From positions 3,782,001-3,846,000 of the forward strand of contig CM074762.1 of assembly GCA_037355855.1 (NCBI GenBank): a stretch of 64,000 nt of DNA. Reading direction: 5' to 3'. The DNA comes from Pseudo-nitzschia pungens (lineage: Eukaryota > Bacillariophyta > Bacillariophyceae > Bacillariales > Bacillariaceae). The translations under genes and the position numbers were made by a program. The notes below the pieces were generated by a model. The model was not told the origin of the DNA. It worked only from the letters and a program-made list of their open reading frames with translations, and did not search any database. How positions within the stretch are numbered: the first letter of the stretch is position 1; every line of letters starts with the position of its first letter. Shown in pieces: positions 21,548 to 47,977 of this stretch.

Positions 21548-21552
21548 AAAAA
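21548..21552 (-). terminator. Pol III T5 terminator of the permuted tRNA gene
   Basis: Five consecutive T on the minus strand start six bases after the last base of the tRNA 5' half (21559). In the gene order 3' half then 5' half, this is exactly where an RNA polymerase III terminator should be. Confidence 0.75.
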
Positions 21553-21558
21553 GTGTAC

Positions 21559-21635
21559 TCGTAGTCAGACGCCTTACCGTTGGGCCAAAGGGTCGAATGA
21601 AACCCTCCCGGGAATCGAACCCGGAATCTTCTGAT
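21559..21635 (-). tRNA. tRNA-Arg(ACG): Circularly permuted tRNA-Arg(ACG) gene
   Basis: On the minus strand the 3' half comes first (21635-21601): base 38, anticodon-stem strand TCAGA, variable AGATT, a perfect 5-bp T stem CCGGG/CCCGG around TTCGATT, and acceptor strand GAGGGTT. After 6 bases (TCATTC) the 5' half follows (21594-21559): acceptor GACCCTT, TG, D arm GCCCAACGGTAAGGC, anticodon-stem strand TCTGA and loop bases CTACGA. Joined 5' half to 3' half, the acceptor pairs over 7 bp (two G-U), the D stem over 3 bp and the anticodon stem TCTGA/TCAGA over 5 bp. The loop is CTACGAA with anticodon ACG. The result closely resembles known eukaryotic tRNA-Arg(ACG). The break is at 37/38, the canonical intron site. 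The leader AGAAAGT and trailer ACTTTTT can pair, giving a bulge-helix-like splice structure. Processing via a circular intermediate is inferred from red and green algal cases. The discriminator would be U, which is unusual. Confidence 0.88.
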
Positions 21636-21672
21636 ATGCTACTTTCTTGCCATGACGACCCATATTTTGTAA

Positions 21673-21678
21673 TATATA
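21673..21678 (-). promoter_or_regulatory. TATA-like box upstream of the permuted tRNA
   Basis: TATATA on the minus strand (within AGTATATATTAC) lies about 38 bases before the 3' half. In a permuted gene the A and B boxes are in reversed order, so an upstream AT-rich element is a plausible promoter. This is inference from position only. Confidence 0.4.
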
Positions 21679-45588: not shown

Positions 45589-47977
45589 ATGGGTTGCTGT
45601 GAGTCGGTTGCGGTAGATGCAACTGGAAATGGCGCGGGGGATTCGACGCTGACGAAGGCTCAGCGAGACGAAGCAGCTCTTCGAAAAGTTGATTGCAGCA
45701 AGGAGGCGAGAGAGATCATATGTGGTGGATTGCGACTCAAGTATGCCTATTTTAGTCAGAGGGGTTACTACCCCGACAATCCAAACAAGGCGAATCAAGA
45801 TTCCTATAGTGTGATCGAACGTTTTGGAGCACCCGATTCGAACGATGCTTTCTTTGCGGTCTTCGACGGCCATGGTTTAAACGGAGACCAATGCGCCCAG
45901 TATGCAAGAGATAAGTTGCCCGAATATCTCAAAAAACACATAGACAAAGCGAGAGCAAAGGCGGCGAAGAAGCTGGACGTAATGAAAGCTGTTCAACAAT
46001 CTTCAAGAAATATTCACAGCGAATACGATCCTCTCTCTCACATTGAACTGTCAAAGGATCAGATGCAAACAGCTTCCAATCGTGCCCACATAGATTGCAA
46101 CAACGCAATGCACCAGGATGTTGATGACAGCTTATCCGGAACAACCTCGATCTCAGCTTACATCCACGGGCGTAGAAACCGGATGACGATATCCAACGTT
46201 GGCGATAGCCGAGCCGTCCTTGGAAAGGCCACTCAAGGCGATAACTTCGGTCAAGGTCTAGCACTCAAGGCCTATCCTCTTTCACGTGACCAGACGCCAT
46301 ACCGCAAAGATGAACGCATACGCATTAGAAAAACAGGAGCCCGCATTCTCTCTCTGGATCAGCTGGAGGGGTTGCAGCCCATTCATAATAGAGATGACGA
46401 CTCGAATGCCGAATCGGGTGACATAGAACTTGGTGAAGAGATCGACGAAGGTGGTGACCCTCCTCGTGTATGGAGTCCCGATGGAGACTATCCCGGCACT
46501 GCGTTTACCAGGTCTTTAGGTGATTCGATGGCTGAGGAGCTCGGTGTATTTGCCGAGCCCGAAATGTTGACGCGGGAAATCAAACCGGACGATCGTGTAA
46601 TTGTTATCGCGAGTGACGGTATTTTTGAGTTTTTGACAAACCAGAGTGTAATCGACATCTGTGCCAAATTTACGGATCCCCTCAAAGCATGCCAAGCTGT
46701 AGTCGCAGAAAGTTACGAACTTTGGCTTCAGTACGAGCTTCGAACCGACGACATCACAATCATTTGTATGTTTGTGGAAGCTCTCACGCCACCGTCCGAG
46801 ATGGAAAGCGAATATGTAACGTCGGCCTCGTCCTCAACAAAGGGTGTTATCAAAATTGGAGAACGTGATGAGAAAGAGACGTTGGAAGCTGGTTCTGCCC
46901 GTCCAGTACGAAAGCGTTTGACAAAGGAAAAGGCCCAGGAAATTGAAAAAATGAAGCAGAATGCTGTTCTTGATGAAGCAGATCTGGCTATCTTGAGCCA
47001 AGAATATGATTTGGAAGCTTTGTACACTGAAAAAACTGCAGCAGAGAAAGCTCGGATTGCAGACGCAATCAAGACATCTGTCATGTTCAGGAATGTCACC
47101 GATGACCAACGCGAATTAATTTTTGGAGTGATGGAGCCAATCCGAGTGAAAAAAGGGGATTGGGTGATCAAGCAAGGGTCGGTAGGAGATCGGTTCTATA
47201 TTATTGATGAGGGTACTTTTGAGGTCCGTATCCTAGGAGAAGGAGAAGAAGACGATGGCAGCGGTGGCGTTCTCACCCACGTTTACGAGGGCTCTGCCTC
47301 GAAGCATTTGCATCCATGTTTTGGTGAATTGGCCCTTATGTATTCGGCTCCCAGATCTGCATCGATTATAGCCACGACAGATGGTACTTTGTGGGCTCTA
47401 CACCGCTCGGCCTTCCGCCAAGTCCTCGCGCAGTCACAAGGAACACGGAAGGAGTTGATGAAAACTCTTGCCAAGATCCCACTCTTCGAGGGACTGAATG
47501 AAGAGGAAATCACGAAGTTAGCTGTATCCTTTGATGAAATTGCATTCGGTCGTGGCGAGAACATTGTGGAACAGGGACACTTTGGAGAGTCGATGTTTGT
47601 GATTACTTCGGGCACTTGTGGTAAGTTCTGACAGGTGATGGATGCTTCCGCAAATGACAAAGATGGTCTTTGCGGACTTTCTTGCTTGCATCATTTCTCT
47701 GCCACTCTCGTTTCTCTTGAGCTCATGTAGCACATGTTATTGTTCCCTTTTCCTGACTTTTTTTTCAAACAATACCACAGAGCGTGTTCGTGTGACGAAA
47801 GGTGATCCTAAAAGTGTTACATTGAAAGCCGGACAGCACTTCGGTCATGAAGTTATTGTCGACCGACAGAAATATTCTGCAACCGTCGTATCACTGCAGA
47901 CAATCACGGGGTGGAAAATCAAGAGAGACGACTTGGTTAAAATGGTTCCGGTCGAGAAACTGAAAACAAATACTTGA
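45589..47977 (+). CDS. PP2C protein phosphatase fused to two cyclic-nucleotide-binding domains
   Basis: Exons 45589-47620 and 47781-47977 (GT-AG, phase 1) encode about 742 residues. The start MGCCES is a myristoylation plus palmitoylation signal, so membrane attachment is predicted. The PP2C domain has KANQDSYSV, FFAVFDGHGLNGD, NVGDSRAVLG, GTAFTRSLGD, VIVIASDGIFEFL and RTDDITIICMFV; the metal-binding Asp residues are all present. Two cNMP-binding domains follow. The first has FGELALMYSAPRSASI with the phosphate-binding Glu and Arg. The second, IPLFEGLNEEEI ... VEQGHFGESMFVITSGTC, ends with FGHEVIVDRQKYSATV, which lacks the canonical Glu/Arg pair and may not bind cyclic nucleotide. The arrangement recalls the PP2C-cNBD-kinase proteins of plants and protists, but no kinase domain is present. 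cAMP/cGMP-controlled dephosphorylation is inferred. Confidence 0.9.

Follow-up and report, generated by a model that had tools for sequence, protein, structure and literature searches.

Putative circularly permuted tRNA-Arg(ACG) and tRNA-Cys(GCA) genes in the nuclear genome of the diatom Pseudo-nitzschia pungens

Does a tRNA gene whose 3′ half stands ahead of its 5′ half work in a diatom nucleus, or is it a rearranged leftover? The question is raised by a short piece of minus strand within a 64,000-nucleotide stretch of the Pseudo-nitzschia pungens genome (hereafter, the window), which an earlier note had described as a diatom nuclear, circularly permuted tRNA-Arg(ACG) gene. Judged by sequence alone, that description holds, and we set out here the evidence from the window and from the whole genome (66.88 Mb, 28 contigs). 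A protein encoded at 45589-47628 of the window shares 94% identity with a P. pungens transcript product (taxid 37318) and 80% with one from P. multistriata.

The window gene and its relatives

In the raw window, neither ARAGORN nor Rfam cmscan at gathering scores called a tRNA, as had been predicted for ordinary tRNA scans. When the two halves were rejoined into 72 nt, ARAGORN returned tRNA-Arg(ACG) and RNAfold drew a cloverleaf, recovering both the full fold and the anticodon claimed previously. The cloverleaf is complete and has the conserved eukaryotic tRNA positions, as judged from ARAGORN, RNAfold, and an alignment with plant, yeast, and human sequences. The gene is permuted at 37/38, and its order on the minus strand is 3′ half, spacer, 5′ half, with the following parts:

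21672..21678, minus strand: TATA-like box TATATAT, −43 to −37 before the 3′ half; probably serves as an external promoter element for Pol III
21643..21647, minus strand: leader AGAAA (−12 to −8), a strand of the outer helix that can pair with the trailer T-run
21639..21642, minus strand: leader GTAG (−7 to −4), complement of anticodon-loop CTAC (32–35); putative central helix of the splice junction
21600..21635, minus strand: predicted tRNA-Arg(ACG) 3′ half, positions 38–73, ending in T73 and including the B box; would be transcribed first
21595..21599, minus strand: intervening sequence CATTC, 5 nt; would be the acceptor-end loop in the proposed circular intermediate
21559..21594, minus strand: predicted tRNA-Arg(ACG) 5′ half, positions 1–37, including the A box and anticodon; would be transcribed second
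21548..21552, minus strand: TTTTT (+7 to +11), Pol III-type terminator and possibly also the trailer strand of the outer helix

Reading the sequence bore out the coordinates given earlier for a minus-strand 3′ half ahead of the 5′ half, as well as the upstream TATA-like box (21678-21672) and the TTTTT that follows (21552-21548). The spacer needed correction: it had been put at 6 bases and consists of 5 nt plus T73 (6 if T73 is counted), the 3′ half being one base longer and reaching 21600. The 7-bp pairing of leader and trailer (AGAAAGT/ACTTTTT) that the note had pointed out is present in the window; since it shares two bases with the GTAG/CTAC pairing, the full forms of the two are mutually exclusive.

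A BLAST search of the genome with the rejoined tRNA yielded 16 half-matches, which pair into eight dispersed loci. Besides the window gene, these are the permuted Arg(ACG) loci at:

C9:725644-725722
C6:1919067-1919145
C5:2051229-2051308
C12:482746-482822
C10:1758242-1758318
C10:298639-298715
C7:883335-883412

All eight have the 3′ half first and are permuted in the same way, with no contiguous copy among the matches. This recurrence at eight loci is the strongest argument against a chance arrangement. Identity of the halves is 97–100% over all eight copies, and the spacer is 5 nt in each, with eight different sequences (AGTGT, CCAGC, AGACT, CACAC, AATAC, ATTAC, GTGAC, and CATTC). Beyond about 15 nt the flanks are unrelated, with the exception of one unrelated 42-base match: upstream of −15, the mean count of the commonest base was 3.67 of 8, versus 3.56 expected at random, and it reached 4.64 in the leader (−14 to −1) and 4.93 in the first 15 trailer bases. 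A37 and A38 occur in every copy while bases −1 and +1 vary, so the exon edges are set at 37/38 by the comparison itself, in agreement with the permutation point proposed earlier.

One alternative is that the permuted loci are relics, and that mature tRNA-Arg(ACG) comes from a conventional gene that was missed or is absent from the assembly. In favor of this, U73 and a G1.U72 wobble are found in all eight copies (in the window, U73 at 21600 and G1.U72 at 21594/21601). This unusual combination would count against a working tRNA-Arg(ACG), being odd for a tRNA-Arg, yet it is invariant in eight. A or G at position 73 is given as usual for arginine tRNA, and arginine identity in yeast as independent of base 73 (PMC9976931). 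Position 20 is U in six copies, C in one, and A in one; for nuclear diatom tRNA-Arg it is reported as U or C, with A also listed for two species in Table 2 of the same study (PMC8975779). Against the loci being relics, both halves are near-identical in eight copies while spacers and flanks differ, and constant exon edges would not be expected of relics. We consider this alternative very improbable.

Another is that the loci belong to a tRNA-derived, SINE-like mobile element, whose copy number would reflect transposition and not tRNA function. The copies are indeed scattered over several contigs, and dispersed repeats with a B box exist in this genome. However, the copies cease to resemble one another no more than about 15 nt beyond the halves, with no common body or tail seen, and their spacers differ while the exons are fixed, a pattern indicative of selection on the tRNA. 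To this explanation we give scarcely any weight.

A second permuted family and the search for conventional genes

Other permuted genes were sought with a rejoining scan, in which a B box followed by an A box within range was identified, the halves were rejoined, and the product was passed to ARAGORN. The scan was applied to DNA fetched for its tRNAs, in overlapping loci. A tRNA pattern had 550 places in the genome; among the 100 matches listed, the DNA of 80 was covered (62 on C1 and 18 on C2). The scan made 19 calls from 67 pairs in the fetched DNA of this genome, versus none from 12–22 pairs in each of five block-shuffled controls, which do not cover the main error of the scan, namely tandem conventional tRNAs. 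The eight Arg genes, in overlapping loci and the window, accounted for 17 calls; of the other two, one was a tRNA-Cys and one was a false positive: the permuted reading of a plastid-type tandem Tyr-Pro pair, which we rejected as arising from tandem conventional tRNAs. As the window lacks a conventional tRNA, this error does not apply to its gene. Varying the half lengths gave several ARAGORN anticodons per gene; the exact 72-nt sequences gave Arg(ACG) and Cys(GCA) alone.

The new gene, on C1, is predicted to encode tRNA-Cys(GCA); its U73 is the discriminator base expected for cysteine (PMC9976931). Because tandem conventional tRNAs give false calls, the case for it rests on the later comparison of copies. 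Genome BLAST with the rejoined Cys sequence, which ARAGORN reads in its exact 72-nt form only as Cys(GCA), found seven permuted loci:

C1:981711-981788, minus strand (L065)
C12:1705986-1706064
C12:1706160-1706238
C10:1903650-1903727
C7:1247780-1247861, spacer 8 nt
C10:74031-74108
C11:320299-320378, more diverged (95%), with a C5.U68 mismatch

Every one of the seven has the 3′ half first, at 95–100% identity, and the spacer is 6 nt in six copies and 8 nt in the copy on C7. G37 and T38 are present in 7/7 and the adjoining bases vary, so that this family too is permuted at 37/38. A second isoacceptor family showing the same pattern in all seven copies found is a further point against the loci being relics.

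Conventional counterparts were then considered for both families. For five Cys genes, ARAGORN was run on the stretch that contains them and called no conventional tRNA, and one BLAST search of the genome found no conventional nuclear-type Cys(GCA). A plastid-type conventional Cys(GCA) is present at C2:7.117-7.157 Mb (in L041 of the set L040–L042); this is a dense run of plastid-type tRNAs inside a nuclear contig, either a plastid insertion or a chimeric assembly.

For arginine, the earlier note had expected ordinary scans to leave a gap in the Arg set and had proposed searching the whole genome for a conventional tRNA-Arg(ACG). No contiguous Arg(ACG) was found by genome BLAST, which scores the best candidates alone, or in the places read for two sequence patterns, which cover close sequences only. 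The pattern GNCTACGRANCNNNAGATT, with 1 mismatch, had 16 places, none of which ARAGORN called as a tRNA, versus 13 places for its reversed control. The pattern TCTGACTACGRATCAGA, with 2 mismatches, had 23 places versus 8 for the control, with no tRNA in the 4 of 23 read; a 17-mer in two of those four recurs six times among the 23 and appears to lie in a dispersed repeat. These searches are non-exhaustive and the assembly may be incomplete, both of which favor a conventional source for the tRNA, with the permuted loci as relics. A conventional tRNA-Arg(TCG) is present and has A73. Of the 208 Arg codons in eight open frames of the window (ORFs rather than verified gene models), 73 are CGT or CGC; as these codons occur there, a tRNA that reads them is needed.

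We also considered viruses as a source of the permuted genes and rejected them, as the calls were mostly tandem conventional tRNAs and no good viral case emerged. A pattern scan of viral contigs gave 33 contigs, with two conventional tandem tRNAs in 25 and fewer in 8. Rejoining produced 42 calls from 273 pairs, 38 of which were two conventional tandem tRNAs. The remaining four, in IMG/VR contigs (L132, L140 at two places, and L141), have no two conventional tRNAs beside them and are probably scan noise. The specific junction pattern had no match in viral contigs, and the exact 27-mer had none in genome_contigs.

Several other tRNA-like features were observed in passing. One dispersed repeat combines a perfect B box with a TTTTGC tail; ARAGORN makes no tRNA call for it, and it may be a tRNA-derived SINE (L045, L073, L096–L099, L101, and L125). 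Two regions, C7:4.80-5.22 Mb and C5:5.86-5.98 Mb, hold many equal-score tRNA matches with mirrored-looking spacing, resembling concatenated organelle genomes at contig ends and perhaps representing assembly artefacts.

Transcription and splice-junction signals

A TATA-like box precedes seven of the eight Arg copies, starting between −34 and −44, versus 11 of 64 conventional nuclear tRNA genes sampled (start −52 to −24; Fisher p = 1.5e-4), and 10 of the 15 permuted genes overall (p = 3.3e-4 against the same 11/64); for Cys alone the excess is non-significant (p = 0.13), and as the permuted copies are related to each other, all p-values given here are a guide only. Such a box occurs at about 2.75% of random positions. 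The Arg copy at C12:482k has none. Among the Cys genes, a TATA-like box lies upstream of three, two stand behind a conventional tRNA-Leu(CAA), and two have neither. The intervals between Leu and Cys, 26 and 29 nt, contain no T-run, so that both genes may be transcribed from the Leu promoter. By eye, these Leu-Cys spacers (26–29 nt; L065 and L170) look hairpin-like, with differing stems and a common TCAA loop, as if pairing were kept.

At the other end, 7/8 Arg copies have a run of T4 or longer no further than 14 nt from the 5′ half, and the C7:883k copy has no T4 within 25 nt. Within 25 nt, such a run follows 14 of the 15 permuted genes (Cys 7/7), versus 45 of 64 conventional genes, a non-significant difference (Fisher p = 0.098).

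GTAG stands at −7 to −4 in six of eight Arg leaders, complementary to loop CTAC (32–35), with unrelated flank further out; the C12:482k leader has TAG one base nearer, and the C5:2051k leader makes two loop pairs only. The binomial probability of this recurrence is about 1e-13 if copies are independent, which the Arg copies are not. Retention of GTAG, TATA box, and terminator in most copies again speaks against relics. Cognate Arg leader/trailer duplexes averaged −4.0 kcal/mol, versus −2.9 kcal/mol over all re-pairings, and 1.2% of 40,320 pairings were as good.

Over both families, with two registers tried, at least three of the four leader-loop pairs (32–35) can form in 14 of 15 permuted genes (Cys 7/7) and all four in 9; random leaders reach at least three in 28% and four in 3.6%. 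On average, leaders make 3.53 pairs with their own loop, 2.93 with the loop of the other family, and 2.02 at random, a specificity shown by the Cys leaders only, because Arg leaders fit the Cys loop equally well or better through G-U pairs. A strict register with a 3-nt bulge is found in 2/8 Arg and 7/7 Cys genes, and in 6/8 Arg genes the central helix leaves a 4-nt bulge. The tRNA-Tyr genes of this genome have anticodon-loop introns of 12–13 nt, which ARAGORN calls at 35–36 and 37–38; our own reading places both at 37/38, and one of them can, by eye, pair with the loop in the register of the permuted genes.

Proposed maturation and place among permuted tRNAs

We read the window locus as one of eight nuclear tRNA-Arg(ACG) genes that are circularly permuted (type II, 37/38) and functional, with a transcript that would be processed via a circle; on the genomic evidence we put the probability of this at roughly 0.93. 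RNA polymerase III would synthesize leader, 3′ half, 5-nt spacer, 5′ half, and trailer, and stop at the T-run; with the A and B boxes in the wrong order, its recruitment would depend mainly on the upstream TATA-like element. The transcript would fold as a tRNA with an open anticodon loop, in which leader and trailer replace an intron and the complementary leader GTAG may pair with loop bases 32–35. After cleavage by splicing endonuclease at 37 and 38, the halves would be joined by a tRNA ligase into a circle, from which RNase P and tRNase Z would remove the 5-nt acceptor loop before CCA addition. From established tRNA biology, A34 would be converted to inosine, allowing the tRNA to read CGU, CGC, and CGA. 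tRNA-Cys(GCA) would be made by the same route. This order of events, from linear transcript to circle, opening by RNase P and tRNase Z, and CCA addition, is a pathway described as demonstrated in red and green algae (PMC3978253).

Candidate processing enzymes were sought in the genome. The splicing endonuclease model PF01974 matches clearly at C2:1561023, with 57.5 bits. A second, weak match at C3:1930714 scores 20.9 bits where the cut-off is 27, and its ORF has a KFG.DFLVY-like motif that we take to be typical. The Tpt1-type phosphotransferase PF01885 is clearly matched (184.7 bits). RtcB (PF01139) has no match in this genome, and its model matches in 9 of 14 control genomes, which makes a 5′-phosphate ligase acting with Tpt1 likelier than RtcB. 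The ligase models PF09511 and PF08303 have no match here; the former has none in any control either, and the latter falls below cut-off in one. The TFIIIC B-block model PF04182 also has no match in the genome, and as it may miss distant forms, we do not use this absence as evidence.

Because the proposed pathway passes through a circle, the loci might be transcribed mainly for a stable circular RNA or for regulatory tRNA halves, with the tRNA secondary, but this would require an extra assumption, the genes retain the hallmarks of a canonical tRNA, and the BLAST and pattern searches turned up no other source of Arg(ACG), making it a most unlikely account.

Returning to the reading of working permuted genes, a broader conclusion seems to us somewhat favored, though held with much less confidence: that Arg(ACG) and Cys(GCA) exist only in permuted form, in eight and seven copies, and that the reading of CGU, CGC (perhaps also CGA), and both Cys codons depends wholly on circularization. 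The genes would have multiplied as permuted genes, with the promoter switched to a TATA element or to read-through from tRNA-Leu, and the arrangement may be diatom-wide, overlooked because scanners are blind to it.

Permuted tRNA genes as a kind are known. Table 1 of PMC3978253 lists 34 in six algae and one archaeon, with at most 11 per genome. Among these, the genes of the prasinophytes Ostreococcus and Micromonas share with those of P. pungens the 37/38 position (all listed prasinophyte genes but one), a short spacer, a junction that may be hBH-like, and, mostly, the lack of an intron. Three of the four prasinophytes listed have a permuted Cys(GCA), as does P. pungens, whereas for arginine that table gives Arg(CCT) and Arg(TCT) and no Arg(ACG) (PMC3978253). 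Unlike the prasinophytes, P. pungens is a diatom (stramenopile) with dispersed, multi-copy families that are permuted in all copies found. The red alga C. merolae has in common with P. pungens the upstream TATA-like element and the T-run terminator; circular-RNA processing has been shown there and is proposed here from the genes. Its 11 genes are permuted at several positions, and only Gly(CCC) has two copies, whereas in P. pungens only 37/38 was seen, in 15 genes for two isoacceptors. The permuted tRNA-Ser of the Bigelowiella natans nucleomorph (PMC3978253) has the 37/38 position and 5-nt spacer of the Arg(ACG) genes. In chlorarachniophytes (B. natans, and Amorphochlora amoebiformis in PMC4494063), however, the permuted genes are for serine tRNAs and lie in a nucleomorph of green-algal origin, not in the host nucleus. 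In the green alga Auxenochlorella, permuted tRNAs came to light after an incomplete tRNAscan-SE set (PMC12636532), and the P. pungens window copy is likewise missed by ordinary scanning.

We found no published permuted tRNA in a diatom nucleus in the open-access literature, mainly at the level of titles and abstract openings. As far as could be seen, permuted tRNAs had not been described before from this lineage or for the isoacceptor Arg(ACG), nor as multi-copy families with all copies permuted. Annotation is affected, as scanners miss permuted tRNA genes: the published P. pungens genome was annotated with tRNAscan-SE 1.3.1 (PMC11499653), and a study of arginine tRNA identity in diatoms drew on NCBI annotation or on BLASTN with tRNAscan-SE for its tRNAs, the terms "permut" and "ACG" being absent from its main text (PMC8975779).

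These genes bring permuted tRNAs into the diatoms, which are ecologically dominant and have a secondary plastid of red origin, and they do so as multi-copy families found only in permuted form, where known cases are nearly all single-copy. The TATA contrast of 7/8 against 11/64 makes the reading of inverted A and B boxes by RNA polymerase III directly testable. In P. pungens, a tRNA that hardly changes is combined with leaders, spacers, and trailers that come in eight natural versions in one family and seven in the other, beside conventional genes of the same genome, which makes new tests of permuted tRNA genes possible.
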